From Flavobacteriales bacterium (GTDB lineage: Bacteria > Bacteroidota > Bacteroidia > Flavobacteriales_D > Sanyastnellaceae): a DNA stretch of 64,000 bases. The stretch spans positions 1 through 64,000 of the forward strand of contig CANEVR010000008.1 of NCBI GenBank assembly GCA_947442505.1, written 5' to 3'. A program made the position numbers and the translations under genes. The notes beneath the pieces are model-generated. The model made no database searches. It saw only the letters and a program-made list of their open reading frames with translations, and was not told the DNA's origin. Of this stretch, positions 8,645 through 64,000 are shown one piece after another; position 1 is the stretch's first letter, and every line of letters starts with the position of its first letter.

Positions 8645-10565
<1,921 letters not shown>

Positions 10566-10592
10566 GTCATCGCCAATTTGTTTTTAACTTGC

Positions 10593-10625
10593 AGCCGCTT
10601 TCCGAAAGGAAGGCGGCTTTTTTTT
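10593..10625 (+). terminator. groEL terminator abutting the dusB start codon
   Basis: Stem AGCCGCTTTCC (10593-10603) pairs with GGAAGGCGGCT (10608-10618) around a GAAA tetraloop, with one G-U pair, followed by an eight-T tract ending at 10625. The dusB ATG is at 10626, so the U-tract is immediately 5' of the next start codon. Confidence 0.88.
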
Positions 10626-11606
10626 ATGGTGAAAATTGACAACATAGAACTTCCTGATTTCCCTCTGCTCCTGGCACCGATGGAAGACGTGAGTGATCCT
10701 CCGTTTCGCTTGGTATGCAAGGAAAATGGTGCGGACATGATGTATACAGAGTTCATTAGTAGTGAAGGATTGATCAGAGATGCAGCCAAGAGCAAAATGA
10801 AGTTAGACATATTTGAATATGAGCGACCCATTGGCGTGCAGATATTTGGAAGTGAGATTGACACCATGGTTCAATGCGCCAAAATCATTGAACAAACCAA
10901 ACCCGATTTGTTGGACATCAACTACGGATGCCCGGTGATGAAAGTTACCTGCAAAGGTGCGGGAGCAGGCATCTTGAAAGACATTGACAAGATGGTTCGC
11001 ATGACGGAAGCCATTGTCAAAGCCACTACCCTGCCCGTTACAGTGAAGACACGTTTGGGATGGGACGATGGAACCAAGAATATTTTGGAAGTTGCGGAGC
11101 GATTGCAAGACATAGGCATAAAAGCATTGACGATACACGGAAGAACGCGTGTGCAGATGTACAAAGGAGAGGCGGATTGGAGCCTCATTGCGAAAGTCAA
11201 AGAGAACCCGCGCATTCACATTCCCATCTTTGGAAATGGAGACATTGACAGTCCGGAAAAAGCGTTGGAATACAAGAATCGGTATGGAGTGGATGGCATC
11301 ATGATTGGTCGCGCCAGCATTGGTTATCCTTGGATATTCCGCGAGGTGAAGCATTATTTGGCCACAGGAGAAAAATTGGCGCCGCCCACCATTGATGAGC
11401 GCGTTGAAACATGCAAAAAGCATTTGATGTTCAGTATTCAATGGAAAGGCGAAGTGTTGGGTATCCTAGAAATGCGCAGACACTACACCAATTATTTCAA
11501 AGGTTTTTCTCACTTCAAGGAGGACAGAATGGCCTTGGTTACTTCGGGTAACTTGGAGGAGATATTGGAGCGGTTGGAGTTGATTAAGGTGAAGTATCGC
11601 TTATAA
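10626..11606 (+). CDS. dusB: tRNA-dihydrouridine synthase (DusB-like)
   Basis: 326 residues. An FMN-dependent enzyme that reduces uridines in the tRNA D-loop. It is a TIM barrel starting LLAPMEDVSDPPFR, with the active-site segment INYGCPVMKVTCKGAGAG containing the catalytic Cys, TVKTRLGWDD, the FMN-phosphate segments IHGRTR and IFGNGDI, and GVDGIMIGRASIGYPWIF. The ATG at 10626 gives the standard N-terminus; the longer TTG start at 10578 would place the groEL terminator inside the gene. Because its start touches the terminator's U-tract, expression probably relies on read-through or a promoter hidden in the 3' end of groEL. Confidence 0.93.
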   Translation: MVKIDNIELPDFPLLLAPMEDVSDPPFRLVCKENGADMMYTEFISSEGLIRDAAKSKMKLDIFEYERPIGVQIFGSEIDTMVQCAKIIEQTKPDLLDINYGCPVMKVTCKGAGAGILKDIDKMVRMTEAIVKATTLPVTVKTRLGWDDGTKNILEVAERLQDIGIKALTIHGRTRVQMYKGEADWSLIAKVKENPRIHIPIFGNGDIDSPEKALEYKNRYGVDGIMIGRASIGYPWIFREVKHYLATGEKLAPPTIDERVETCKKHLMFSIQWKGEVLGILEMRRHYTNYFKGFSHFKEDRMALVTSGNLEEILERLELIKVKYRL

Positions 11607-11656
11607 CAATATTCTTTATTTATTGATTTTATCGTTGAGTGCTTTTCAATCTTAAA

Positions 11657-11748
11657 TACTAATTTGTAAAGTAAAAATCTACTAATATGTAAAATGAAAA
11701 GCTACTAATCTGTTCAATGAAAAGCTGACAATTTGTAAAATAGACTAG
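11657..11748. repeat. Four tandem 23-nt degenerate direct repeats
   Basis: Units start at 11657, 11680, 11703 and 11726, each 23 nt, following the pattern TACTAATnTGTAAAnTGAAA plus AGC. The fourth is the most diverged. An inverted partial copy, GCTTTTCAAT, sits just upstream at 11641-11650. The array and its flanks resemble the multiple subterminal repeats at ends of IS21-family elements, but no transposase gene is near, so this may be a solo end or relic. The rest of the 298-bp gap (11607-11904) holds only the small ORF noted at 11830. Confidence 0.6.
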
Positions 11749-11829
11749 TTTTAGCAACAAAAAAATCCCTTTATTCAAGCTTGCAATTCATACCATCCGA
11801 AAGCAGTTCTCAGGATTCATTAAATCGAA

Positions 11830-11922
11830 TTGGGATTAGTTGGCGTTGTGCACGCTATTCTCAGCATAGGAATCATCACGCTATTATCAGGGTTGTTCTT
11901 CCGTCTAAGAACTAAAAAGTAA
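11830..11922 (+). other. Possible 30-residue hydrophobic ORF or gene remnant
   Basis: A TTG-initiated frame encodes one transmembrane-like segment (VHAILSIGIITLLSGLFF) followed by a basic end RLRTKK and a stop. It looks like the C-terminal tail of a membrane protein: a hydrophobic helix with a positive-inside finish. An in-frame stop lies 9 nt before the TTG, so it is either a tiny membrane peptide or the remnant of a gene lost next to the repeat array. It overlaps the end of the convergent gene by 18 nt. Confidence 0.25.
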
Positions 11923-12429
11923 ACTCTTTATTTTTCGTTTGAATCGCGTCCATCTGCTCTGAGGAAGCACTGCATCACTTGGTGCGATGGTAACGGAATC
12001 GTGCAATGCAATGGATTCTTTGGCAACCAATAAGGAATCTGCTGGTGTGCTCAGGGTGTCTTGATTGGGATAGTCCAGTGGCCAACCAATCATTGAAGCT
12101 TTGTTGAAACTGGGATAAGTAAATCCTAGCGGATAGGGCCAATTGTCATAAACAATGCAACCACCGCAAGTGGGATACCATGTATTACAAAAAATGGGGA
12201 AAACAAAATTCCAACCCTCCAAAATTAAAATGGGATAAAACATCGTGTCTTTGTGCAATTCCATCTCAAACCGATGCGTATAATACACCGGTGCTGTGCT
12301 GTGAGCCGAAAATAAATTCGCAGGCTGACGACTCGCATTTTTGATATAAAAAACAACTAATATTAAAACACCAATCAATAAAGGGATTACTATGTTTTTA
12401 ATTTGCTTCACAACAATACAGACTTCCAT
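11905..12429 (-). CDS. Membrane-anchored protein of unknown function
   Basis: 174 residues from the ATG at 12429; a TTG at 12450 would add 7. A single N-terminal transmembrane helix (IVIPLLIGVLILVVFYI, about 12-28) is followed by an exported domain with several Cys and aromatic residues (FCNTWYPTCGGCIVYDNWPY, about 103-122) and a basic C-terminus KRKIKSLLF. I do not recognise a family. The CxxC-like spacing TCGGC could be a disulfide or metal site. It is divergent from the YdeI-like gene, with 57 nt between starts. Confidence 0.6.
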   Translation of the reverse strand: MEVCIVVKQIKNIVIPLLIGVLILVVFYIKNASRQPANLFSAHSTAPVYYTHRFEMELHKDTMFYPILILEGWNFVFPIFCNTWYPTCGGCIVYDNWPYPLGFTYPSFNKASMIGWPLDYPNQDTLSTPADSLLVAKESIALHDSVTIAPSDAVLPQSRWTRFKRKIKSLLFSS

Positions 12430-12474
12430 CCAAGACAAGTGTTGCCCCAAGAATCAATCTTTAACCTTCTTTTG

Positions 12475-12482
12475 CATCTTTG
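12475..12482 (+). promoter_or_regulatory. -7-like box 4 nt before the YdeI-like start
   Basis: CATCTTTG differs from TAnnTTTG by one base and is followed by CAAA and the ATG at 12487. The distance implies a transcript with almost no leader. Confidence 0.35.
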
Positions 12483-12486
12483 CAAA

Positions 12487-13128
12487 ATGAATCCGAAAGT
12501 TGACTTGATTTTAGCAGAAGGTTGTGGCCGCTGCCAATGGCACCAAACCACAAAATGTAAAGTTCATACATGGAAGTTGGAGCTCCCTTTACTCCGAGAA
12601 ATTCTTTTGTCTTGTGGACTAACGGAAGAGGTGAAATGGGGTCAACCCTGCTACACAGACAATGGCCGAAATATCATCATTTTAGCCCCATTCAAAAACT
12701 ACGCAGCCTTGAACTTCTTCAATGGCGCTCTCCTTCCTGACCCACATGGACTTTTAATACAACCAACTGAAAATACACAAGCAGGTCGTCAACTGCGGAT
12801 TACTGATTCGAAGTTCATTTTGGATAATCGCGATGTGATAGCCACCTACATCCATTTGGCCATTGAGGCGGAACGTTCAGGGGAAAAAATCATATCAAAG
12901 AAAACAGAAGAATATCCCCTACCCGACGAACTTTTAATCGCCTTTAAAAACGTCAATGGATTGGAACAAGCTTTTAGACAATTAACACCTGGAAGACAGC
13001 GGGCCTATTTACTCCATTTCAATCAAGCAAAGCAAAGCGCTACCAAAACCAGCCGAATTGAAAAAAGCATTTCCGATATCATGGCTGGAAAGGGATTTAA
13101 TGAAGATTATAGAAATAAAAAAAGGTAG
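12487..13128 (+). CDS. YdeI/OmdA-type protein with DUF1801 domain
   Basis: 213 residues with two recognisable parts. Residues about 25-125 fit DUF1801 (EEVKWGQPCYTDNGRNI, FFNGALLPDPHG), a small alpha/beta fold. Residues about 140-205 fit the OmdA/YdeI C-terminal helical region (LTPGRQRAYLLHFNQAKQ then TRIEKS-type helices and MAGKGFNED). Homologues such as B. subtilis YdeI have been linked to bacteriocin or antimicrobial protection, but biochemistry is lacking. The ATG at 12487 fits the domain start; earlier candidates at 12403 only add the antisense of the divergent gene's promoter region. Its stop codon lies inside the terminator hairpin at 13120-13143. Confidence 0.8.
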   Translation: MNPKVDLILAEGCGRCQWHQTTKCKVHTWKLELPLLREILLSCGLTEEVKWGQPCYTDNGRNIIILAPFKNYAALNFFNGALLPDPHGLLIQPTENTQAGRQLRITDSKFILDNRDVIATYIHLAIEAERSGEKIISKKTEEYPLPDELLIAFKNVNGLEQAFRQLTPGRQRAYLLHFNQAKQSATKTSRIEKSISDIMAGKGFNEDYRNKKR

Positions 13129-51808: not shown

Positions 51809-52768
51809 TTACATGCTGTCCTTTTTGCCATTCAATATTTGGTTCAACCAATTAATATCCTGTACTTGTTCATCAAGTGTCTTTAGCGGAGAATCACTAC
51901 CTTCAGATAAAAACGCTTGAACTTCCTTAAACACACCTGGTTTGTATTTATCATCAATCAAAGCTTCGTTTACATTCACTTCATTCACTGTCAGCTCAAA
52001 CAATTTTTGCTCAAACAATTTTTCCATTGGACGCAATACCAATTTCCGTTTTGCGGTTAAAAGTTCTATTCCCCACCTCCCCGCTGACTCCCAATTAGCA
52101 GAATAACTAAATAAAACGTTCCTATCCGTTACACCTGAGCCCGCAAAAACTGAAGGCTTATGCCAACCACAATCTCCGTCTACAAAACTTGAAAGGTCTA
52201 TGGGCTTACCCATTAAGTAAAATGCCAAATCCAAAACATGGCTAGAATTGGCCAAAAAATAATTTTTTTTGATGTTGTCACTAACCTTTAAATCCTGAAT
52301 AACATGAGACCATTCAGTAAACTCAAAATTGCCAGAAATGATTCCTCCATCTTCTTCTATCAGTTTCATCACTTGATTGACTGAAGAGTAGAATCTTCTA
52401 TTGTACGCTATGAATACCTGTGAATCAATGCGTGATGACATTTCATGCAATTCAAGAATCTCATCAAAATTAAGACCCCCTGGTTTTTCAAGTAAAATAC
52501 GGTTACAGTTCAATCTTAGTACCTCAATGGCTGTGCGCTTCAACACATCCACACCAACAGCCACGATCGCGCCATCAAATCTTTCCGAACAAGTCTTTAA
52601 GTAATTTTCAACGCCTCCTGTGATCGGTAAAATTCCAAACTCTTTGTTAAACTCATCCGCGCCTTCTTGACCCCGTCCTACTATCGTTATCTCAACATCC
52701 AGGTCCTTCAATACTTTAAAATACTCTTTGGCCATATAACCGGTACCAACCAACAAAATCTTCTTCAT
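51809..52768 (-). CDS. Gfo/Idh/MocA-family oxidoreductase A
   Basis: 319 residues. The N-terminal Rossmann fold starts ILLVGTGYMAKEYFKVLKDL (GxGxxA) and contains RILLEKPGGLNFDEI with the conserved EKP Lys; the C-terminal alpha/beta domain has AYNRRFYSSVNQ. NAD(P)-dependent oxidation or reduction of a sugar is expected. It is one of three such proteins in the operon, and adjoins the second through a 4-nt ATGA overlap; the pair may act on the same substrate in succession. Confidence 0.88.
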   Translation of the reverse strand: MKKILLVGTGYMAKEYFKVLKDLDVEITIVGRGQEGADEFNKEFGILPITGGVENYLKTCSERFDGAIVAVGVDVLKRTAIEVLRLNCNRILLEKPGGLNFDEILELHEMSSRIDSQVFIAYNRRFYSSVNQVMKLIEEDGGIISGNFEFTEWSHVIQDLKVSDNIKKNYFLANSSHVLDLAFYLMGKPIDLSSFVDGDCGWHKPSVFAGSGVTDRNVLFSYSANWESAGRWGIELLTAKRKLVLRPMEKLFEQKLFELTVNEVNVNEALIDDKYKPGVFKEVQAFLSEGSDSPLKTLDEQVQDINWLNQILNGKKDSM

Positions 52769-53733
52769 GTCACTGGAATAAATGATTCGCTCTTATTTAA
52801 TTTAAAATTATACCAATCTATAGCCGATAAAACAAACTTCTGATGCATTGAAAACGCTTCAGCATATGTCGTCAAAGGTAGTTCGTCATGTTGCAATAGT
52901 CCGTCAATTAACTCTTTAGAAAGATTGCTTTGATACTCAATCTCACCTTCAATCAGTTTATCCCCATCTTCCTTGTTGAACAAGCGCAAACTTTCAGACT
53001 CATCTATGACGTACTCAACAAGTTCTCCTTTTACGCTTATTGAAATGGATTTCAAATCTGGTAAAATTTCTGACGTCATTTGCAAAGCATCACCATTGGC
53101 AAAATCAACTTTTATCGAACCATGAACCTCAATAAAAGAAGTTCTTTTAGAATTTACTATCGTATTATTTTGATTGAAAAAATCAATCTGATCAACTTCT
53201 GTATTTCTTAAAAAACACCACAAGTCTATATAGTGCAGGGCATTGCAAGCTATGCCCCAGTCATTGCCGCGAATATCCACAAAAAAACTCTCGTTCTCGA
53301 TGGAGTTAAAAAAATTCTCTACCAATTGATAAAACTTGAACATCCTTCTCGGATGGTTCACCCAAATTTTCATGTCCGGATATCGAGAGAAAAGCGACTT
53401 GGATTCTTCAAAATCAGCAGATGAATTAAACAAAATTTTCTCCAAAACTAAAAAACGCACTTTAACTTTTTTCAAAATGCTTTTAATGTGATCCATTCTC
53501 ACATTAGCAGTACCAGATATTATACATACATCCACCTCTTCCGGCAGGTTTGAAAATCCGTCCTGAAAATGAATGATTGCATGATGGGGAACTTCACTGC
53601 TTCGTTGATACGCCAATTCCAATGAAGACTTCCATTCATCTATTACCCATACCTCCGTGATACTCGGGTTTTTTAATACTCCTTGCAAATGTCGTGAGCC
53701 CAGCTGCCCTGATCCAACCAAAATAAACCTCAT
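52765..53733 (-). CDS. Gfo/Idh/MocA-like oxidoreductase B
   Basis: 322 residues from ATG 53733 (MRFILVGSGQLGSRHLQ), which lies 10 nt after the stop of the upstream SDR; a longer TTG start would overlap it. Rossmann motif GSGQLGSRH, and FLVLEKILFNSSADF in the EKP position (EKI here). NHPRRMFKFY could be the substrate-site segment. It is weaker than its neighbour at the Lys-Pro motif and so may be a divergent or non-standard dehydrogenase. The role in nonulosonate or branch-sugar synthesis is inferred from context. Confidence 0.8.
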   Translation of the reverse strand: MRFILVGSGQLGSRHLQGVLKNPSITEVWVIDEWKSSLELAYQRSSEVPHHAIIHFQDGFSNLPEEVDVCIISGTANVRMDHIKSILKKVKVRFLVLEKILFNSSADFEESKSLFSRYPDMKIWVNHPRRMFKFYQLVENFFNSIENESFFVDIRGNDWGIACNALHYIDLWCFLRNTEVDQIDFFNQNNTIVNSKRTSFIEVHGSIKVDFANGDALQMTSEILPDLKSISISVKGELVEYVIDESESLRLFNKEDGDKLIEGEIEYQSNLSKELIDGLLQHDELPLTTYAEAFSMHQKFVLSAIDWYNFKLNKSESFIPVT

Positions 53734-53743
53734 TGTACTTAAT

Positions 53744-54472
53744 TTATATTGCTGTCCAACCACCGTCAATGATAATATTCTGGCCTGTTATGTATTGAGA
53801 TTCATCACTGATTAAAAAAGAAATTGCAGGAGCTATATCAACAGGAGTCCCCATTCTTCGCATTGGCACTTTTTTGCAATAAGCATCCAAAAATGCTTTG
53901 GGCTGAGCATCAATAATTCCACCTGGCGAAACACAATTGACGCGCACACCGTCAGGCCCTAGCCGCGCCGCAAGAAAACGTGTTAAATTAATTATGGCAC
54001 CCTTAATTGCCGAATATGCTGCAGGCATCGTCATTTCTGTATTTTCATAAACTGAAAAATCCGGACCGACAACTCCATAAATAGACGATAAATTTACAAT
54101 TGAACCAAAGCCCTGCTTGGTCATAATATCACTTACCTTGTGCATGCACAAAAAATATCCATTCAAATGCATGTCAATGTTCTTTTGCCATGATGTAAAC
54201 TCAATATCCTTCCAATCTTTCCCCCAATCTTTTGTGCGAGGATAAGCGTTATTCACCCAACCATCAATATAGTCATGCTTTGCCAACAACTTCATCAACA
54301 TGGATTGGACACTTTCTTGATCTGTAATATCCAAATAATAACAATCACCCGCGTCTTCTAATGACTTATCGGCACGTATGACATGAAATCCTTTTTTCGT
54401 CAAATCCAGAACCATCTCTTTGCCTAAAAGTCCCTCTGAACCAGTAACGACAACTAACTTTCCGCGCTTCAT
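53744..54472 (-). CDS. Short-chain dehydrogenase/reductase, PtmA-like
   Basis: 242 residues. SDR features: VVTGSEGLLGKEM (NAD(P) site), WVNNAYPRTKDWGKDW, the catalytic Ser in IVNLSSIYG and the YxxxK in YSAIKGA, then VNCVSPGGI and TGQNIIIDGGWTAI. The NNAYPR segment is one I associate with PtmA of the Campylobacter legionaminic-acid (ptm/leg) locus, and its position near PtmE-, LegG- and LegI-like genes supports this. It is 1 nt from the methyltransferase gene. Confidence 0.85.
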   Translation of the reverse strand: MKRGKLVVVTGSEGLLGKEMVLDLTKKGFHVIRADKSLEDAGDCYYLDITDQESVQSMLMKLLAKHDYIDGWVNNAYPRTKDWGKDWKDIEFTSWQKNIDMHLNGYFLCMHKVSDIMTKQGFGSIVNLSSIYGVVGPDFSVYENTEMTMPAAYSAIKGAIINLTRFLAARLGPDGVRVNCVSPGGIIDAQPKAFLDAYCKKVPMRRMGTPVDIAPAISFLISDESQYITGQNIIIDGGWTAI

Positions 54473-54473
54473 T

Positions 54474-55205
54474 TCAATCTTTTGTTATTTCAAGAACATA
54501 CCAATTCATGAGCAATCCACCAGAAATCTGAATTCTTCCTTGTTCTGTCATTACTGTGTGTGTCCCTCTTCCTCTTGATACTTTTTCGAAATCAACCGCT
54601 GGGACAAACTTGTGAAACTTAAGCCTAACGCCGCTATCAACCAACCAAGAACTTATCGTCTTTTCACTAAAAGTATTGTAAGCAATGGGTATATTGCGGA
54701 TGTCTTCTGGACGGGTAAGATCTGTCAAGTTGCTAAAAATATCAACATCATAATCCAAATTGAAAAGAGAACTCAAGTACAATTTCCCTCCTGGTTTAAG
54801 AACCCTAATCAACTCAAGCAAACCCTGTCTTGGATGAGTTATCCAACTTAAAGTCTGCCAGCAAAACATCAAATCAAAAGTTTCATTTTCCACGTTGTTC
54901 ATATTGCACATGTCACCAACATGAAATTCTAAATTTCCGTCCACTAAATTGCGTTTTGCCAACTCAATGGATTCTTCCACATAATCCAACAAGAAAAATC
55001 GATGATTCTTGTTTTTGAAATACTCATTGATATGATAAGTCAAAGTCCCAGCACCACATGCAATATCCGCGATGTACAATTCCTTTTCTGGAATATCTAT
55101 AATTGACTCCAAGAACTTTTGCTGTTCTGTTTTTACTAAGGACTTGAGATAATAATCTTTAGAATACTCCAAATCTAATTTTATCACTTTCTTATAATCA
55201 TCCAT
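54474..55205 (-). CDS. Class I SAM-dependent methyltransferase
   Basis: 243 residues. SAM-binding motif I is YIADIACGAGTLTYHI, motif II-III region ENETFDLMFCWQTLSWITHP and a later LLELIRVLKPGGKLYLSS with the post-motif. It resembles small-molecule (Methyltransf_11/25) enzymes. It may O- or N-methylate the nonulosonate or another sugar; no substrate motif is evident. It lies between the fusion protein and the PtmA-like SDR, 1-6 nt from both. Confidence 0.87.
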   Translation of the reverse strand: MDDYKKVIKLDLEYSKDYYLKSLVKTEQQKFLESIIDIPEKELYIADIACGAGTLTYHINEYFKNKNHRFFLLDYVEESIELAKRNLVDGNLEFHVGDMCNMNNVENETFDLMFCWQTLSWITHPRQGLLELIRVLKPGGKLYLSSLFNLDYDVDIFSNLTDLTRPEDIRNIPIAYNTFSEKTISSWLVDSGVRLKFHKFVPAVDFEKVSRGRGTHTVMTEQGRIQISGGLLMNWYVLEITKD

Positions 55206-55211
55206 TTCCCT

Positions 55212-57317
55212 TCAATTAAACTGTCTAAATACCGGTTTTACTAGCGGTCCTTGAATTTTATCCGTAATTCCTGAATCCAAAGCTGAGGAAAGCACTGAGA
55301 ACACCTCAGAAACTTTTTCAAGCGTATACGCAATATCTTCTGGCTTGTGGGAAAACGATGGAGAGATATAGGACATGATGATTTTTCTTTTGATCATTTC
55401 TTGAAGAAACAAAGTTCTCATTTCCATTGAAACATTTCCCTGTTCATCTTTCCAAACAAACAAAGGCGAGCAATCATATCCCAACATTTCAAAATTATTC
55501 ATTAAACCGTGTTGCCTTGCCAAATCTAACATTCCAGATTTCAACATGGCTCCTATCTTCCAAATATGCCGTATGACATCATCTCTTTCTATGATTTCAA
55601 CTGTCTTTAAAAATGCCCCTAAGGCACCCATCTCGGCTCCGTGAGTGGTTGATGTTAAAAACACCCTTTCCATCCCCAATTCATTAATGTTACCAAGCAT
55701 CATTATTTCACGCTTCCCCGCCAAAGCGGCAACAGCAAAACCATTTGCCATGGCTTTTCCGAATGTGCATACATCAGGTTCTACCCCATAAAAATGCTGC
55801 GCTCCCTTGAGATCCCAACGAAATCCAGTAATCATCTCATCTAAAATGAACAAAGCCCCATTCCTATGACACAAGTCTTTTACTTGATGCAAAAAATGAG
55901 ACTTATTGCTGGGGCATGTTAAACAATTTCCATGAGGGCTTTCACAAGAGCATGGTGAAAGATGAGTAGCAGGTTCCATCAACACAGCGGCAATTTCTCC
56001 CGGGTAATTTTGAAACAAAATTTCAAGAGATTGTAAATTTCCAAAATTGAATTTGTGGGTGTAGGCAGCAGACTCTTCCAAGGTGCCTTTTTTTAATGGT
56101 GTTGTCCCAATAAACCAATCGTCAAAGGAAAAGAATGGCTGCTCACTCGGTACTAAAATTCTCTTTCGTCCTGTATATGCTCGGGCCAATTTAATTGCCG
56201 CTGTTGTGACAGTGGAACCGTGCTTAGCAAACTTCACCATATCCACTGAACCAATAAGATCAACTAACTTCTCTGCAGCTACTAGCTCTGTGTAAGATGC
56301 TCTTGTCAAATTGTTGCCTTTCATCGCTTCCTGATAAAAGGCTTCATTGATTTCACCATTTGCATAACCAATATTCACACTTCTCAATCCCATGCCATAG
56401 TCCAAATAACGATCCCCGTTATTTGTAAACAAATGACAGCCCTCACCTCTATCAAACAATGCCGGGGTGTTGGCAGAAAACTGGTCGTCTCCTCTGGAAT
56501 AAGTATGGGCACCGCCTGGAATTACTTTGTGCAAGCGCTCACGTAATTGTTCATTATCTTTATCCTTTTCAGTATTCATCTCACTGTTAAAATTAATCCA
56601 ATAATCTTGATGCACAGCCATATTGGTCTGAAAAAAAACATTTTCTTCAACCGTTTGAACAATATCAATTGTTGAAGTAGAAAATATTTTGCTTTTAAAA
56701 AATTCTATAATCGAATTGAAAAATTCCGCATCCTCATTGTAATCAAGTGTATATCGGTGATGTGAGTATGGTTCATAATTAACCAAAGGACTTATCTCCT
56801 CATGTTTTGAATCTTGGAATACCCTGCCCCAGCCTGTTTCCATTTTTTCATCTCTCCAAACAGCTGCCTTTTCTAACAAAAAATTGCGCTCATATCCAGA
56901 AACGTTCATTCCAAACGGCCATCCCTTTGTTTGACAATAAAGCCCTCCTGATTCTAAATACTGAATGACGGACAGCACTGACTCTGGTGAGACCAATACA
57001 TCGTCACCGTCCACTGATACCAAACCATCCAATTGATAAGCAGCAACACATTCTGCTAAACGTTTTGGAATGTGGTTATCATTCCCTCTAAAAATTTCAA
57101 TTTCATTTTTCACACCCCAATCTACCAATGGATCATTGATTGCGTTCACACCACTACAAATAATGACTTGAACATCTTTCTTAAGGTTTTGAGAAAGATG
57201 AAAAATCAATCTTTGACACAAGATATCCAGATAAGTATTTTCCTTATAAGAAAGTAAATGTTTGTTTGGCAAGCGTTTAGAACCTAGCCTCACCAATATG
57301 GCAACAGCTATCTTCAC
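55212..57317 (-). CDS. Fusion: SpsF-like cytidylyltransferase + GSA-aminomutase-like PLP enzyme
   Basis: 701 residues. N-terminal domain (1-~240) is an SpsF/CMP-NulO-synthetase-like nucleotidyltransferase: ILVRLGSKRLPNKHL, GLVSVDGDDVLVSPESV. After a short linker with an internal ATG (residue ~247, 56579) comes a class III aminotransferase (~265-701) like HemL: VIPGGAHTYSRG, FAKHGSTVTTAAIKLARAYTG, LDEMITGFRWDL, PLP lysine in CTFGKAMANGF (~521), TSTTHGAEMGALGA. An insert (about 453-470) has four Cys, CSCESPHGNCLTCPS, unknown to me in HemL-type enzymes, possibly a metal site. Starts GTG at 57317, overlapping the Gfo/Idh stop codon by 4 nt. It occupies the operon position where legF/neuA is expected. 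CMP activation by its N-terminal half is inference. Confidence 0.85.
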   Translation of the reverse strand: MKIAVAILVRLGSKRLPNKHLLSYKENTYLDILCQRLIFHLSQNLKKDVQVIICSGVNAINDPLVDWGVKNEIEIFRGNDNHIPKRLAECVAAYQLDGLVSVDGDDVLVSPESVLSVIQYLESGGLYCQTKGWPFGMNVSGYERNFLLEKAAVWRDEKMETGWGRVFQDSKHEEISPLVNYEPYSHHRYTLDYNEDAEFFNSIIEFFKSKIFSTSTIDIVQTVEENVFFQTNMAVHQDYWINFNSEMNTEKDKDNEQLRERLHKVIPGGAHTYSRGDDQFSANTPALFDRGEGCHLFTNNGDRYLDYGMGLRSVNIGYANGEINEAFYQEAMKGNNLTRASYTELVAAEKLVDLIGSVDMVKFAKHGSTVTTAAIKLARAYTGRKRILVPSEQPFFSFDDWFIGTTPLKKGTLEESAAYTHKFNFGNLQSLEILFQNYPGEIAAVLMEPATHLSPCSCESPHGNCLTCPSNKSHFLHQVKDLCHRNGALFILDEMITGFRWDLKGAQHFYGVEPDVCTFGKAMANGFAVAALAGKREIMMLGNINELGMERVFLTSTTHGAEMGALGAFLKTVEIIERDDVIRHIWKIGAMLKSGMLDLARQHGLMNNFEMLGYDCSPLFVWKDEQGNVSMEMRTLFLQEMIKRKIIMSYISPSFSHKPEDIAYTLEKVSEVFSVLSSALDSGITDKIQGPLVKPVFRQFN

Positions 57318-58324
57318 AAATACAAGATTTGTCCTGTTTTTGAATCAGATGATGTTTCAATCGCTTCTAGCACTTGCAAAACGCGATCATCAAAAATTAA
57401 GTCGTTCGGAAATGGAGTTCTATTGCTCAATGACTCAATAAAAGCGTTCATTTCCAATTCATACATTTCCTCGGTAATATTGGAATTATAACCCTCATGA
57501 GCCTTTTTTGCTGTAAAACTGATGCGCTCTTCTTCCGACTTGTCATTAAAAATGGAAATGTAGCTGTTACTCCAATTCCATTGAATTTGACCTTCAGAGC
57601 CATTGATGATGAGATGCCTTACTGCTTGGCGGCTCACCACATCCACTGTCAATGCAAGAATACCTTCAGTTAATGTTAGAATCGCACTGTAAGTATCATC
57701 TATTTTCTCAGCTCCCGGTATTTCTATTGTTTTTCCATAATAACCCATTACAGATTTAGGAAATCCCCAAATATCAAGCATCCAGGTTAATTCGAATGGC
57801 ACAATCTCCCTTGCCCCTCCTGTTTCTTTTTTAGAAACGTAATACTCCTCAACACTTTCATAGGTGTGCCAGTCAGGTAAAAACTGCCCTGAACAGTAGT
57901 TGATATTGGAAAGCTTTCCAATGCTACCATCCAAAAAAATTTGTTTGATTTTCTGAATAGCCGGATGAAATCGCAAAGTGCAAGATGGGGCAGCAATGAT
58001 TGCTTTCTCTTTTGCCCATTCATAACATTCCAACAAACCCTCACGTAAAACACTTGCCTCCACAAAAAAAGATATTCCTCTACTCACAGACCAATTCATG
58101 TATTCCAAATGAGCATCTGGTGGCACTGAAATGATAACAGCATCAAAGTTGTTTTCTTCAAAACTCTTCCAATTATCAAACACAGGTAAGGACATAATAT
58201 CTGAAAACTCATCACATCGATCAAGCCTTGAATCAAAACCCACAATGTTATTGTATCCTAGACTTCGCAAATTCCTTGCTCTACGCTTTCCCATAGAGCC
58301 CAAACCAATAATTCCAATAAGCAT
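57314..58324 (-). CDS. Gfo/Idh/MocA-family oxidoreductase C
   Basis: 336 residues. Rossmann motif GIIGLGSMGKRRARNLRSLG, AVIISVPPDAHLEYM, and the FFVEASVL segment in the EKP region (Glu-Ala, so the Lys is missing). The C-terminal domain includes GGAREIVPFELTWMLDIWG. It is placed between the PtmE-like nucleotidyltransferase and the fusion enzyme, the position where a PtmF/oxidoreductase-type gene occurs in leg/ptm loci as I recall them. NAD(P)-dependent sugar oxidation is likely but the active-site Lys is doubtful. It overlaps the fusion gene by 4 nt (GTGA). Confidence 0.83.
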   Translation of the reverse strand: MLIGIIGLGSMGKRRARNLRSLGYNNIVGFDSRLDRCDEFSDIMSLPVFDNWKSFEENNFDAVIISVPPDAHLEYMNWSVSRGISFFVEASVLREGLLECYEWAKEKAIIAAPSCTLRFHPAIQKIKQIFLDGSIGKLSNINYCSGQFLPDWHTYESVEEYYVSKKETGGAREIVPFELTWMLDIWGFPKSVMGYYGKTIEIPGAEKIDDTYSAILTLTEGILALTVDVVSRQAVRHLIINGSEGQIQWNWSNSYISIFNDKSEEERISFTAKKAHEGYNSNITEEMYELEMNAFIESLSNRTPFPNDLIFDDRVLQVLEAIETSSDSKTGQILYL

Positions 58325-58325
58325 A

Positions 58326-59369
58326 TCAATCCTCTAAAAGTTTATATTCATTCAAAGCTCTTGTATAATCTGAGTGTCTTCCTATATCCAACCAATATCC
58401 AGTATGCATGTATGCAGTGACAACCTTATTGTTTTTAATCAATGAATCAATCAAGTCTGTCGCGTCAAAGTAGTCTTGGTCTATCAATTCGAGGCATTCC
58501 TTTCTAAACATGTACATGCCCCCATTTACCTGATGAACCACTGTCGGTTTCTCTTTTAAACCGATAACTCGATTTTCTTTGATCTCTAAAACTGCAAAAG
58601 GAATATTGGTATCATAGGGAACACTCAAAACACAAAAATCAGAACCAGAATCCACAAAATACTCGTACCACGCTTCATAATCAACGTCACTTAACAAATC
58701 AGAATTGGCCACTAAAATGACTTCATTCTCCCAATCTTGATTTAATCGAACGGATCCAATCGTTCCCATTTCTTGACGCTCATGAATAAACGCAACCTTC
58801 TTCGAGTGGTCAGGATGGTGGATCATGTGTGAGACAATTACATCAGCCAAGTAATTCACGGAAATCCACACTTTTCCCACGCCAAAACTATATAAACGAA
58901 GAATGTGACGCTCGATAATGGGTCTATCACCCAAAAGCAACATTGGTTTTGGTGTTTTCTCCGTTAGTGGGCGCAAACGCAAACCCTTTCCCCCCGCCAT
59001 CAAAACAATATCTATGGGAAGATATGACTTCTGTTTTCTAAAATTGACTATATCTACTATGTGCTTTTCCTCATCAAGGACAGGAACAATTTTAAAGTTA
59101 TTCTTGCGGTATTCTTTTAACGTGGCCATGTCAATTTGACCTTGTCTAAAAAATTTTGGATCAGGCTGAATCACCTGTTTTACATTGTCACTCAAGTTAA
59201 TCCCGCTCAACAAACCCCTTCGTATATCACCATCTGTTAAACTTCCTATCAACTGATTCTCCGGATTGCAGACAAACAAAACAGCATCAGCTGCTAAAAT
59301 ATTTAACCGCTCTAATGCCTCCTTTATACTGGACGTTTCCTCAATGATATGATTACCAGGTCCCTTCAA
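58326..59369 (-). CDS. ptmE: CBS-domain nucleotidyltransferase, PtmE-like
   Basis: 347 residues. Two N-terminal CBS motifs (about 15-115: ADAVLFVCNPENQLIGSLTDGDIRRGLLSG given by position, and KIVPVLDEEKHIVDIV) precede an NTP-transferase domain with DIVLMAGGKGLRLRPLTEKTPKPMLLLG given by position (about 120-147), and ILVANSDLLSDVD. This is the layout of PtmE, the glucosamine-1-phosphate guanylyltransferase of the legionaminic-acid pathway. Start is TTG at 59369, overlapping the LegG stop (TTGA); no Met occurs before residue ~72. It makes GDP- (or another NDP-) activated GlcN-type precursors. Confidence 0.84.
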   Translation of the reverse strand: MKGPGNHIIEETSSIKEALERLNILAADAVLFVCNPENQLIGSLTDGDIRRGLLSGINLSDNVKQVIQPDPKFFRQGQIDMATLKEYRKNNFKIVPVLDEEKHIVDIVNFRKQKSYLPIDIVLMAGGKGLRLRPLTEKTPKPMLLLGDRPIIERHILRLYSFGVGKVWISVNYLADVIVSHMIHHPDHSKKVAFIHERQEMGTIGSVRLNQDWENEVILVANSDLLSDVDYEAWYEYFVDSGSDFCVLSVPYDTNIPFAVLEIKENRVIGLKEKPTVVHQVNGGMYMFRKECLELIDQDYFDATDLIDSLIKNNKVVTAYMHTGYWLDIGRHSDYTRALNEYKLLED

Positions 59370-60493
59370 TCTTGGTTTTTTAACAAATTTAAGACAATTT
59401 CAGAGGTGTTTCCTTCACCATATATGTTTTTGCCTAAAAATCGACTCCTCTTGATTTCTATGTCTAGAATAGCTTTTGTGATTGCTTTGGTATCAAATTC
59501 ACATTGTACAACATTATCACTTACCGCTCTTCCCTTTTGTCTGTTACCAAGATTGATTACCCAACATCCAAGTGTGGCAGCTTCAACTATACCACTTGAG
59601 GTATTGCCTAACATCAACTTGCAGTTTCGCATTGCCGTATAGTACAATTTCACGCCTAGATGTTCAGCGCAAAATACATGGTCCGGATATGATCTGGACA
59701 ATTGCTTCCACATCTGACGCCAAACTTCAGATGCCGTATCAGTATTGGGCAAAGAAACCAAAAACTTCCTATCCGAATTGGCAATTTCAAACTCAATCGC
59801 CTTCGAAAAACTTTTAGCATTTACTGAATTGCTTTCCACATCCGCGGTTTCAGGATGAACGGTCACCAATATAAATTCATCAGTCAATGCCAGTCCTGTT
59901 CGACTATAGAAAAATTCTGAGTTACAATCTTGATGAGACAATAACGAGTCTATAGCCAATGAACCAACTTTGAAAACTCTTCTGATCTGATGAGGTAGTT
60001 TCAAACTTTTAACTCTGTCATAACTGCCTTGCTCGGCAGTAAAATTCCATTTTGAAACAATTGAAATAAAATCACGATAGCTTTGGTCAATAGCCCCCAT
60101 GGTCACCTCACCTCCATGAAAATGAGCAAAAGGAATTTGAAAAGGGATACCGGCTGCAACAACTGCTGCTAACTCATACCGGTCACCCAAAACAAAAACA
60201 ATGTTATAACCAATATGATCTTTCCAAAACTCAGCAAACCTCATCACCACCATGCCATAGTTCAAGGCAATAGAGCATGCGTCATGGGAGGTTAACAAAG
60301 CTGGAATCAGATGATACTTCAACAAAGGAAAATCATCTTTCACTTCATCAAAAGTAGATCCATGATAAATTGATAAATGAGATCCTGTAACGATAATCTC
60401 CAATTCCCATTGGGTTGAATTTTCAATGCCGCCAATCAACGGTTTCAAAATTCCATAATCCGCTCTCGATGTTGTTACTATCGCTACTTTCAT
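59366..60493 (-). CDS. legG: Hydrolysing UDP/GDP-sugar 2-epimerase, NeuC/LegG-like
   Basis: 375 residues, GT-B-like epimerase fold. Starts VAIVTTSRADYGILKPLIGGIE, with FVLGDRYELAAVVAAGI, HFHGGEVTMGAIDQSYR and LMLGNTSSGIVEAATLGCWVINLGNRQKGR (by position, ~315-343). The family removes the nucleotide while epimerising C2 to give free ManNAc or 2,4-diacetamido-hexose for the NeuB step. In a legionaminic-acid pathway the substrate is GDP-linked. It overlaps both neighbours by 4 nt (ATGA with LegI). Confidence 0.9.
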   Translation of the reverse strand: MKVAIVTTSRADYGILKPLIGGIENSTQWELEIIVTGSHLSIYHGSTFDEVKDDFPLLKYHLIPALLTSHDACSIALNYGMVVMRFAEFWKDHIGYNIVFVLGDRYELAAVVAAGIPFQIPFAHFHGGEVTMGAIDQSYRDFISIVSKWNFTAEQGSYDRVKSLKLPHQIRRVFKVGSLAIDSLLSHQDCNSEFFYSRTGLALTDEFILVTVHPETADVESNSVNAKSFSKAIEFEIANSDRKFLVSLPNTDTASEVWRQMWKQLSRSYPDHVFCAEHLGVKLYYTAMRNCKLMLGNTSSGIVEAATLGCWVINLGNRQKGRAVSDNVVQCEFDTKAITKAILDIEIKRSRFLGKNIYGEGNTSEIVLNLLKNQD

Positions 60494-61509
60494 TCGAAAT
60501 CATCAAAATTCAGCATTTCACCTACTTGGATGTTCCGTTTACACTTCTTACCCACTAAAATATTCCAACTCATTGGACTAATTCCCGAACCTGGTCTCAG
60601 CGCTGTCAAATCTTCTTTTGAAACTATATCACCAGACGACAAATTGCGCTTGGCGAACAAACTCCTTCTTGCAATTAATATGTTCTTCCTTTCAACCGCA
60701 GTTGGTTCTTTCACACCTGTTCCTGAAATAGCCGCGGATACATTTCTAATGCTAGTAACCAGTTGATTCAATTCATTCTGATCTAAAGACGCCTTGTGGT
60801 CAGGACCTTCTAGCCCTTTGTCCAATGTAAAATGCTTCTCAATTAAAACAGCTCCCAATGCTACAGCGGCGATAGACACTTCAATCCCATTGGTGTGATC
60901 CGAATAACCCACTTCAACACCCAATTCATCGGCAATGGCTCGCATGGCGAGTAGATTCACATCCGAAAATTCAGTTGGATACTCCGTATGACAATGTAAG
61001 ATAACCAAATCAGAAATGCTCATACCTGACTCTATCAATACACGCACCGCAGCTTTGACCTCTTCCATGGTTGACATTCCTGTGGACAGAACTACTCTTT
61101 TCCCACATGAACCAACAAACTGCAGAAAATCAAAATTGGTTACTTCCCCCGAGGGGATTTTAATAAAGTCCGGATTGAATTGCAATAAAAACTGCACAGA
61201 ATCCCTATCAAAACCGGTAGATAAAAACTTTATTCCTAGATCTTGGCAGTGCTGTATCAATTGAGGATACCACTCCAAAGGAATCTCTAATTTCTTAAGC
61301 ATTTCCAATTGAGAAACAGAATCACCCATGTTTCTCTTTTGATAATCTGCGAGATCCGCGCTGGCACTAACCAGTTCTTCTGTACAAAAAGTCTGAAACT
61401 TCACATAATCTGCACCCGCATGCGCCGCTGTTTCAATCAGTAGGAGCGCTTTTTCAAGGTCGCCATTATGATTCACACCGGCTTCAGCAATAATCGAAAT
61501 TTTGTCCAT
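60490..61509 (-). CDS. legI: Nonulosonic acid synthase, NeuB/LegI-like
   Basis: 339 residues from ATG 61509 (MDKISIIAEAGVNHNGD). TIM-barrel NeuB domain with IIAEAGVNHNGDLEKALLLI, DYVKFQTF, SGEVTNFDFL, VGYSDHTNGIEVS and ALGAVLIEKHFTLD, followed by an SAF/antifreeze-like C-terminal domain (RRSLFAKRNLSSGDIVSKED). It condenses PEP with a C6 amino sugar to form a nine-carbon acid. LegI versus NeuB (sialate) cannot be decided by eye; the adjacent LegC/LegH-like and PtmE-like genes point to legionaminate. The gene upstream is a FISUMP protein, 36 bp away. Confidence 0.93.
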   Translation of the reverse strand: MDKISIIAEAGVNHNGDLEKALLLIETAAHAGADYVKFQTFCTEELVSASADLADYQKRNMGDSVSQLEMLKKLEIPLEWYPQLIQHCQDLGIKFLSTGFDRDSVQFLLQFNPDFIKIPSGEVTNFDFLQFVGSCGKRVVLSTGMSTMEEVKAAVRVLIESGMSISDLVILHCHTEYPTEFSDVNLLAMRAIADELGVEVGYSDHTNGIEVSIAAVALGAVLIEKHFTLDKGLEGPDHKASLDQNELNQLVTSIRNVSAAISGTGVKEPTAVERKNILIARRSLFAKRNLSSGDIVSKEDLTALRPGSGISPMSWNILVGKKCKRNIQVGEMLNFDDFE

Positions 61510-61544
61510 TCTAATTTGAATCCCATTAACACAAAAAAAACTTA

Positions 61545-62876
61545 TCAATCCCTGACACAACGAACAGACATACCCATAACGTTAGAAGCACTATTTCTGA
61601 ATATCATTCCACTAGTACTTAACAAGGAACGGAAAAAAGCACTAGATGCTGGAGCGGAACTTGATGTCCAATAATAAGCACCTGTAGTCAGTACACGAAA
61701 ACTTCCTGTTTGATTTCTGTATCCCCCTGGTAGTGCAGAGAACGAAAACTCGTCAGTAGCGCCAGAATTTGGAGCTGCCCATAAATTTGTTGATTTCAAC
61801 TTACCACCTTGCATGGAACCTCTTCCACCAGTAGCAATTTGCGATGCCAAGGTTAATCCAATGGTGTTTTCTAAAAACATCCAATCGCAATCAGAAGGGA
61901 CATGCCAACCTGTTGGACAGAGTCCCCTGCTATCATTCACAGCATACCAATTGTACAATCTGCCGTAGACATCACTATTTGCCGCCAAATTAGCCCATCG
62001 GCAATACGCGCCCGTTGTGGACGAAACCCAACCAGAAGTGGTGTTAATTTGAGGTATCGATGTCCCATCTCTGTATTGGGTTGATGTAAGATTCTCAGCA
62101 AACCAGCATTGACCGCCCACCTCAACCAAAGAATAATTTACGCCCTGATAATCCAATGAGGTCTCCCCTAAACAACCTGTCACAGAGATTGGTGAAGTTG
62201 TACAGGACGAATTTCCTGGCAACAATGCAGTTCCAGTAAAAAAACCTTGACATTCACAAAGCGTATTGATAGCATCATTGATTGTGAGCGCATTTCCATC
62301 ATCACATTGATCATAAACCTGCAAACAGCTTCCATTATCAAGATTCGCGGTGGATGAATAATTGCAAGCGGTTGGATCCGTGCATCCTCTAACGTAGTTT
62401 GCATCACTAATCCCCGGAATAATCACATAGGAGTTAGGTCCAGAATACAAAGTGTCACCTGAGGTGCTCACAGTAAAAGTAACTTGTTCTGCAGTTTTGC
62501 TGTGCAGCGCATAAGGAACAGACAACAGCTGCTGATTGCCAATTTCCAATCCATTCATCAATATCTGCATGTAATGATTGTGACTGGCCCAATTGATGGT
62601 TGAAAAATCACCAATCACAACATTGCCAGCACCAATATTCACTGTGAAAAAACCGCGAGTATCTGTAATCAAAGTATGATTCTCATCGTAAACAACCAAT
62701 CCACTAAAACTGTCCTGTCTTATTTTGAAGTTCAATGTGATATTGGTTTGGGACAGAGGATTCCCATCTGCATCTCTGGCAATAGCCTGATAGGGTATGA
62801 GTTCTGGTGTTTGCGCTCTTGACACAAAAACAGAAACAAACAAAAAACCCATGAGAAAAATTATCCGACGCATCAT
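61545..62876 (-). CDS. Exported FISUMP-domain protein
   Basis: 443 residues from ATG 62876, with a signal peptide to about VSRAQT. N-terminal ~150 residues: LIPYQAIARDADGNPLSQTN, a beta-rich stretch frequent in Bacteroidota surface proteins. Middle (~175-200): GCTDPTACNYSSTANLDNGS, a Cys-rich repeat. C-terminal ~200: the Fibrobacter succinogenes major paralogous domain (GQCWFAENL, YGRLYNWYAV, GLCPTGWHVPSDCDWMFLE, LPGGYRN, YYWTSSSA, SVRCVRD). No T9SS sorting domain is visible at the C-terminus. Located within the nonulosonate operon, it interrupts the sugar genes and has no evident role in them. Confidence 0.85.
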   Translation of the reverse strand: MMRRIIFLMGFLFVSVFVSRAQTPELIPYQAIARDADGNPLSQTNITLNFKIRQDSFSGLVVYDENHTLITDTRGFFTVNIGAGNVVIGDFSTINWASHNHYMQILMNGLEIGNQQLLSVPYALHSKTAEQVTFTVSTSGDTLYSGPNSYVIIPGISDANYVRGCTDPTACNYSSTANLDNGSCLQVYDQCDDGNALTINDAINTLCECQGFFTGTALLPGNSSCTTSPISVTGCLGETSLDYQGVNYSLVEVGGQCWFAENLTSTQYRDGTSIPQINTTSGWVSSTTGAYCRWANLAANSDVYGRLYNWYAVNDSRGLCPTGWHVPSDCDWMFLENTIGLTLASQIATGGRGSMQGGKLKSTNLWAAPNSGATDEFSFSALPGGYRNQTGSFRVLTTGAYYWTSSSAPASSAFFRSLLSTSGMIFRNSASNVMGMSVRCVRD

Positions 62877-62940
62877 TACATATTTTGTGCTAAGATACCA
62901 TAAAAATATTAAAGTATTGCAGTTTCGGTTACTGTAAAAA

Positions 62941-63558
62941 TCAAACCCTCGAAACTGCCGGAGCTCCCCAACAAGTATCCCCGTCAGGGATGTCCTTAAG
63001 AACCACTGAACCTGCGCCAACAATTACATTCTTCCCTACCTGAACACCTTCCCTTATAACCGCCCCTGCGCCAATCCACGAGCCACTTCCCACAATTACT
63101 CCGCCGCACAATACAGCACCTGGTGAAACATGCACTCCATCCATAATTACGCATTCATGCTCCACAATAGCACCCGAATTAATAATGCACCCATTTCCTA
63201 TCTTAACAAAGGTTTGCACCACACTCCCTTTTGAAACAAAATTAAATTGCCCTATTGAAGCAAATACTGAAAGCGAAGCCGATTGATCAATAATGTTTAC
63301 TCCCCTAACACCTCTATTCTGCAGATTACTGATTAACCTTAATCTCATCTGATTATCACCAAATGCAGCAAAGACATTGACTTCATTCCAATCCTTGAAA
63401 TCAGTTTCACTGCCTAAATATTTTAGAGAAAAAGGATTTTTCAACTTCTCTTCTTTCTCAAAATAACCCAAACAAGTCATGCCGCTTTGAATTGCGCTTT
63501 CAAGGACTACAAAGGAATGTCCAGAGTAACCTAGAATATAAAATTCAGACTCTAGCAC
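62941..63558 (-). CDS. LegH/NeuD-like hexapeptide acetyltransferase
   Basis: 205 residues, PglD/NeuD layout: an N-terminal Rossmann-like subdomain (YILGYSGHSFVVLESAI; VFAAFGDNQMRL) and a C-terminal left-handed beta-helix of hexapeptide repeats (NFVSKGSVVQTFVKIGNGCI, INSGAIVEHECVIMDGVHVSPGAVLCGG by position ~127-154). The His in EHECVI is the expected catalytic base and the helix ends IPDGDTCWGAP. It acetylates the amino group of a 4-amino sugar (LegH-type) or a sialate (NeuD-type). The start is GTG 63558, overlapping the LegC-like gene by 14 nt, so the two are probably coupled. Confidence 0.87.
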   Translation of the reverse strand: MLESEFYILGYSGHSFVVLESAIQSGMTCLGYFEKEEKLKNPFSLKYLGSETDFKDWNEVNVFAAFGDNQMRLRLISNLQNRGVRGVNIIDQSASLSVFASIGQFNFVSKGSVVQTFVKIGNGCIINSGAIVEHECVIMDGVHVSPGAVLCGGVIVGSGSWIGAGAVIREGVQVGKNVIVGAGSVVLKDIPDGDTCWGAPAVSRV

Positions 63559-64000
63559 TGCTCGGTAAGTTAACTAAAGTTTGATAAACTTTTTCCGAAC
63601 AAGACAATTCATCTTTCCATGCATTCTGAAACATCGGAAGGTGATTCATGGGCTTCCAAGAGGGTCTGACCATAACTCCACGCTCAATTGATTTCGCAAT
63701 AAAGTACTCTCTTTCATCCCAACTGCTGAATAATATCGCATTTAACCAATAATTGGATTTCCTATCTTCATCTTCTTTGAAAAAACGAATATCATTGTAC
63801 TCAGATTCAATAAATTTTCTATAAAGATCGGATGTATTTCTTTTGTCCAATAAAATTTGATCAAGCACCTCGAGCTGTGCGCAAAACAATGCCGCATTGA
63901 TATTTGGACAACGATAATTATAGCCTATCTTGTCATGAAAAAACTCGTAAGGATGATGAACCTTGGCTTGAGTGGTTAAATACTTGGCCTTTTTGGCCAA
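63545..64000 (-). CDS. DegT/DnrJ-type aminotransferase, LegC-like, partial (N-terminus off-window)
   Basis: Only the C-terminal ~151 residues are in the window; the gene continues beyond 64000. Segments AKVHHPYEFFHDKIGYNYR, CPNINAALFCAQLE, NYWLNAILF, VMVRPSWKPMNHLPMF and LVNLPSSARV match the C-terminal half of DegT/DnrJ/EryC1/StrS aminotransferases and, as I recall it, LegC of the legionaminic-acid pathway, which makes a 4-amino sugar from the 4-keto product of LegB. LegB and the PLP lysine lie outside the window. The reading frame is open to the edge. Confidence 0.85.
   Translation of the reverse strand: MAKKAKYLTTQAKVHHPYEFFHDKIGYNYRCPNINAALFCAQLEVLDQILLDKRNTSDLYRKFIESEYNDIRFFKEDEDRKSNYWLNAILFSSWDEREYFIAKSIERGVMVRPSWKPMNHLPMFQNAWKDELSCSEKVYQTLVNLPSSARV

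Follow-up and report, generated by a model that had tools for sequence, protein, structure and literature searches.

At one end of the window, a stretch of 64,000 nucleotides from the genome of a freshwater bacterium of the Flavobacteriales, lies a legionaminic-acid-type operon in which one gene joins a cytidylyltransferase-like domain to a PLP enzyme. The genes, and the parts of the fusion, are as follows in order of transcription.

63545..64000, minus strand, LegC, a DegT-type aminotransferase, running past the window (the LegB dehydratase is next, outside it)
62941..63558, minus strand, NeuD/LegH acetyltransferase (TIGR03570 over cut-off)
60490..61560, minus strand, NeuB/LegI synthase (TIGR03569 over cut-off)
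59366..60493, minus strand, NeuC/LegG epimerase (TIGR03568 over cut-off)
58326..59369, minus strand, PtmE-like protein, CBS and nucleotidyltransferase
57314..58324, minus strand, Gfo/Idh oxidoreductase, PtmF by position, candidate oxidising partner
55212..57317, minus strand, fusion gene, 701 aa (GTG start at 57317, stop at 55212-55214), SpsF-type cytidylyltransferase and PRK06209-type class III PLP enzyme
56598..57317, minus strand, N-half of the fusion, residues 1-240, predicted cytidylyltransferase (PF02348, alignment, model)
56544..56597, minus strand, linker, residues 241-258, including an internal ATG
55215..56543, minus strand, C-half of the fusion, residues 259-701, predicted HemL-fold transaminase (D493 and PLP lysine K521 conserved)
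55896..55961, minus strand, optional four-Cys loop, residues 453-474 (C456, C458, C465, C468)
54474..55205, minus strand, methyltransferase between fusion and SDR, possible N-methylation of the product
53744..54472, minus strand, PtmA-like SDR (PRK09186 258 bits, cut-off 255; FlagModPtmA 180 bits, below the cut-off of 350)

By family, the operon is complete for a nonulosonic acid (NulO) of legionaminic type: LegB, LegC, LegH, LegG, LegI and PtmE are present, and the role of LegF is taken by the SpsF-type domain. Upstream of the fusion stand LegB (outside the window, in L084), LegC, NeuD/LegH, NeuB/LegI, NeuC/LegG and the PtmE-like and PtmF-like genes; it is followed by the methyltransferase, the PtmA-like SDR, two more Gfo/Idh-type genes and a flippase-like gene. 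The Leg/ptm clusters of Campylobacter and Plesiomonas (PMC4481668) have LegB, C, H, I, G, PtmE, PtmF, the LegF position and PtmA in matching order, but the window has an SpsF-type domain for LegF and, in addition, the PLP enzyme. A preliminary description of this DNA had placed the fusion where a legF or neuA gene is expected, within a NulO locus, and the comparison agrees on both counts: as the Plesiomonas order is PtmE, PtmF, LegF, PtmA, the fusion occupies the place of LegF. PtmF itself is described as an oxidoreductase (PMC4481668). A separate canonical neuA was looked for in the whole genome with PF02348 and none was found, the only matches being the fusion, kdsB and an SpsF-like gene on contig C44. 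The last may serve two further NeuB-family genes outside the window (G000:C2:6804-7859 and G000:C14:33979-35019), with a HAD-type phosphatase-like gene following the second. Between neuB and neuD, at 61545-63023 on the minus strand, the operon also contains a Fib_succ_major (PF09603) gene, as does that of a second species of the genus (L004); its start overlaps neuD and its product has a signal-like hydrophobic stretch. The two Gfo/Idh-like genes past the SDR occupy 51809-53769 (minus strand), with no Pfam or NCBIfam match for 52765-53769, and in L027 and L054 such a pair again lies downstream of the PLP gene.

The two domains named in the preliminary description are both recovered above the Pfam gathering cut-offs, PF02348 (CTP_transf_3) at residues 5-131 and PF00202 (Aminotran_3) at residues 283-606. 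The fusion is genuine and maintained under purifying selection, since an intact 701-codon copy with 95% identity is found in the second species of the genus (L004/G245) and dN/dS between the two is low: 0.107 in the N-half, 0.072 in the linker (3 changes only), 0.085 in the C-half and ~0.09 over the whole. A sequencing or frameshift artefact as the source of the fusion is ruled out by the same intact copy. Within the genus the fusion is present in two of the seven genomes searched, those of the window and of L004/G245; patchy presence of this kind is common for variable surface-glycan loci. The internal ATG that had been read as a trace of two ancestral genes does lie at the domain junction (56579, codon 247, in the linker), but no obvious ribosome-binding site precedes it. 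Descent from two genes is supported by the relatives, most of which carry the domains as separate neighbouring genes.

For comparison with fused and single-domain relatives, the two halves were aligned and modelled separately. The N-half scores 35.6 bits against PF02348 (cut-off 22.6), and R10, R15, K19, D105 and D192 are invariant across 30 N-half relatives (alignment A2). D105 and D192, which we take to be the counterparts of two metal-binding Asp residues in KdsB, are probably the metal-binding acids, the roles of N-half residues being presumed from what is known of KdsB. The AlphaFold model of this half (pLDDT 93.3) has as its nearest fold 6oew, a Leptospira cytidylyltransferase (TM-score 0.80), followed by KdsB. 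Domain score, fold, metal acids and the Arg and Lys residues of the nucleotide loop together point to a CMP-ulosonate cytidylyltransferase of the SpsF/KdsB/NeuA group, for which CMP transfer is predicted. SpsF companions of the PLP gene are of two kinds: one has an ETGWG motif (15 loci) and PtmF adjoins the PLP gene in all of them, and the other has an REHV motif (17 loci) and PtmF in none. The SpsF domain in the window is of the ETGWG kind. The SpsF of Bacillus subtilis is a putative cytidylyltransferase needed for legionaminic acid at the spore surface (PMC7439481).

The PLP half, described earlier as HemL-like, turns out to belong to a known and widespread, if misnamed, family that is usually encoded by a separate gene beside a cytidylyltransferase. 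It passes NCBIfam NF004856 (PRK06209) with 579.2 bits against a curated cut-off of 486, as do stand-alone and fused relatives; members are normally single-domain, whereas the one in the window is fused to a cytidylyltransferase. The name of NF004856, glutamate-1-semialdehyde 2,1-aminomutase, is not borne out, the context being NulO synthesis and not haem synthesis. The C-half has the same fold as HemL (GSAM) and the same PLP-site Asp and Lys, but scores 176.1 bits against TIGR00713 (hemL), far below the curated cut-off of 527.3, and a separate true hemL in the same genome exceeds that cut-off (564.9 bits). In addition, 8 residues of the gating-loop region are missing relative to the HemL of the same genome, a deletion common to the relatives aligned, the motif PF[FY]S[FY]DDWFIG stands where HemL has its YHGH.D stretch, a C-terminal VFR motif is found in the family and absent from HemL, and a Cys loop is optional. 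HemL identity was rejected on the failed TIGR00713 score, the hemL elsewhere and the shortened gating-loop region. The class III aminotransferase residues are nevertheless in place, with the pyridine-nitrogen Asp (D493) and the PLP-binding Lys (K521) both conserved, and the model (pLDDT 90.6) resembles GSAM, its close matches including FumI (6hbs) and omega-transaminases. Matches to the C-half also include the aminoglycoside C-6' aminotransferases 7lld and 7lm0. From these features we infer that the C-half is a transaminase, not an aminomutase.

The four Cys residues to which attention had been drawn, C456, C458, C465 and C468, do exist, as a C-x-C-x6-C-x2-C pattern in an insert following E448-P449 that is modelled at pLDDT ~65, but they are not peculiar to the fusion protein and recur within PRK06209. 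In the stretch after E448-P449, 48 of 96 relatives have no Cys, 40 have four or five, and only eight have one to three; on a tree built with the loop columns left out, the four-versus-zero state changes 11 times. The loop is dispensable, given these changes and the half of the relatives with no Cys there, and on both grounds it was rejected as a special, essential catalytic feature. It appears to have been gained and lost largely as a unit (~40% of relatives carry it), and its near all-or-none distribution suits an optional, putative structural metal site.

Across 84,980 species genomes scanned, 80 loci were found, and a search through 399 genomes from the same order returned 31 above the PRK06209 family cut-off; relatives were collected by similarity to the fusion protein, so that the sample of contexts is biased. 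Most are stand-alone PLP genes adjoining a CMP-synthetase gene (SpsF or NeuA), and their constant neighbours are Leg-type NulO genes in the order LegB-LegC-NeuD-NeuB-NeuC-PtmE-(NeuA or SpsF)-PLP-SDR. PRK06209 genes stand in NulO clusters across many phyla, including Bacteroidota, Pseudomonadota, Nitrospirota and Planctomycetota, in most cases accompanied by a PtmA-like SDR. A NeuB gene is present in 78 of the 98 loci fetched, and a NeuB match in all 31 PLP-positive genomes (30 strong, one fragmentary); the corresponding figure for same-family controls is 11 of 29 (eight strong), in a comparison uncorrected for kinship. Of 84 complete loci, 68 have an SDR gene no more than four genes away from the PLP gene, and some of the 16 without one are probably gene-calling failures in high-GC DNA. 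Besides the window genus, the SpsF-PLP fusion occurs in L054, in L011 (Deltaproteobacteria/Myxococcota), and in L119 and L121, which come from another family of the same order. A quick tree with SH-aLRT support only needs four changes for the fusion (three of them forced by starred branches) and nine between SpsF and NeuA context, which suggests that the fusion arose about four times. Burkholderiales PLP ORFs of 600-755 aa, considered as further fusions, were set aside: they have no match to a second domain and are probably over-extended high-GC frames.

The architecture that the preliminary description had singled out has a characterised analogue, in which a reductase takes the place of the transaminase. 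In Acinetobacter baumannii prophages, EpaA consists of CTP_transf_3 and an aldo/keto reductase and EpaB is an adh_short_C2 SDR; together they convert pseudaminic acid to its 8-epimer (8-epi-Pse), as established by NMR (PMC12053666). The natural reading is that one partner oxidises C8 and the other reduces it from the opposite side. Common to EpaA/EpaB and the window are an N-terminal CTP_transf_3 domain joined to a tailoring enzyme, an SDR gene nearby and, as predicted for the window, a 5,7-diamino NulO. However, the C-terminal partner is an aldo/keto reductase in EpaA, with 8-epimerisation as the outcome, and a class III transaminase (Aminotran_3) in the window, where a methyltransferase gene also intervenes between fusion and SDR. 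The EpaA and EpaB sequences were not found in the phage collection using related queries. Similarly, a Vibrio Pse cluster contains an SpsF-aldo/keto reductase fusion whose SpsF-like domain replaces an absent NeuA, as in the window, but the partner is again a reductase and its function is predicted only (PMC7371886).

An aminated product of the kind that such a transaminase could give is known from the O-polysaccharide of Flexibacter (Tenacibaculum) maritimus, which contains 5-acetamido-7-(3-hydroxybutyramido)-8-amino-3,5,7,8,9-pentadeoxynonulosonic acid (PMC3210612); no biosynthetic pathway for it was found in the literature searched. An aminotransferase of the Leptospira NulO cluster has been left without an assigned step (PMC3438082), and in Legionella serogroup 6 a gene annotated as glutamate-1-semialdehyde aminomutase adjoins a cytidylyltransferase gene (PMC3694923). 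The Legionella gene list was all that a literature search for the PRK06209 family in NulO synthesis yielded, and no functional assignment for the family was found in the literature searched. The known fusions carry a reductase, and against the literature searched the transaminase fusion and its proposed function are therefore new, whereas the family itself, under a wrong function label, and cytidylyltransferase-reductase fusions were already known. In the Shewanella Kdo8N pathway, KdnA and KdnB oxidise and then transaminate C8 of an ulosonic acid; this order of reactions is like that proposed below, but the enzymes are others and the sugar has eight carbons. Kdo8N is mentioned alongside the Flexibacter sugar (PMC3210612).

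The preferred reading, with a probability of about 0.55, is that the fusion is a two-step NulO-tailoring and -activating enzyme, in which oxidation at C8 by the SDR or PtmF is followed by PLP-dependent amination and CMP transfer; both activities and the order of the steps are predictions from domains and gene context, and C8 is suggested by analogy. The operon would make a legionaminic-acid-type NulO. The PtmA-like SDR, which is the best candidate for the ketone-making dehydrogenase, or less likely PtmF, would oxidise one hydroxyl, in all likelihood that at C8, on either the NulO or its CMP form. The intermediate would be a side-chain methyl ketone, because C8 bears the terminal methyl group. 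Class III (omega) transaminases act readily on methyl ketones, and HemL-like class III enzymes among the matches (7lld and FumI 6hbs) aminate acyclic or terminal carbons, which gives a chemical precedent. The C-half would swap the ketone oxygen for an amino group from an amino acid and the N-half would move CMP from CTP onto the sugar. What results would be a CMP-8-amino NulO for a surface polysaccharide, perhaps with an N-methyl group added by the methyltransferase encoded next to the fusion; replacement of the EpaA reductase by a transaminase would likewise lead to an 8-amino NulO. This amination would be an additional one, since LegC, the ring C4 aminotransferase, is separately present in the operon. 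The earlier idea of a PLP half that aminates a NulO gains support from the gene context, with activity, substrate and position all predicted. PtmA need not be dedicated to amination, as we know of no PLP gene of the PRK06209 kind in the PtmA-bearing clusters of Campylobacter and Plesiomonas.

The same module could carry out the same type of reaction elsewhere on the NulO, for example at C4, whose hydroxyl is the other free one common to Leg- and Pse-type NulOs, and the gene context points to a NulO-tailoring transaminase and not to a position. This is unlikely, however, as the only C-aminated NulO beyond C5 and C7 found in the literature searched is aminated at C8 (PMC3210612) and the analogous EpaA fusion acts with its SDR at C8 (PMC12053666). 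Slightly less probable still is action before NeuB on a nucleotide-linked hexose or its precursor, where the PLP half would either stand in for LegC or join PtmA and PtmF in supplying precursors. In Campylobacter, PtmA has been assigned to the opening, GDP-sugar part of the pathway (PMC4481668). Against this reading, LegC is encoded within the operon itself and at most PLP loci, and it is the CMP-synthetase of the last step, not the early genes, that the PLP gene neighbours or is fused to. Isoleucine 2-epimerase and racemases also occur among the matches of the C-half, which could accordingly be a HemL/isoleucine-2-epimerase-type epimerase or racemase, or make an amine-bearing substituent; such roles are improbable, the matches being weaker than those to GSAM-type transaminases and no acyl- or peptidyl-transferase partner being constant across the loci. 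An aminomutase for tetrapyrrole synthesis, which the name of NF004856 and the GSAM-like fold would suggest, can hardly be entertained against the hemL score, the separate hemL, the 8-residue deletion and NulO-synthesis context throughout.

If C8 amination by the fusion is correct, a large family annotated as a tetrapyrrole enzyme would in fact consist of sugar transaminases, which install one more amine on bacterial sialic-acid-like sugars and so alter the charge and recognition of cell-surface glycans. Genes would be assigned to the 8-amino-NulO structure known from an O-antigen, with a genomic marker for more, and CMP-NulO synthetase domains would be seen to fuse with C8-tailoring enzymes as a rule, a reductase in EpaA and a transaminase in the window. 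It is suggested more tentatively, at a little under even odds, that PRK06209 with its SDR partner is a widespread route to C8-aminated NulOs, repeatedly fused with the CMP-synthetase and so coupling amination and activation.

Several of the other loci have features of their own. In L054, a stand-alone SpsF gene is directly followed by the SpsF-PLP fusion (9995-12865), giving two cytidylyltransferase domains in one NulO operon. L119 and L121 are pseudaminic-type loci that have PseG- and PseH-like genes and encode NeuA separately; in both, an aldo/keto reductase gene lies just upstream of the fusion (7101-10075 in L119), and reductase and transaminase may there be alternatives at the same carbon. 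A conserved protein of ~222 aa with no Pfam match is encoded between HisF and the PLP gene in 30 loci (L008:9315-9980 and others), whose clusters contain a PtmG-like amidotransferase with HisH and HisF. Finally, a carbon-nitrogen hydrolase gene (PF00795) directly follows the PLP gene in ~10 loci (L010:9383-10156, L011, L012, L027 and L073 among them).
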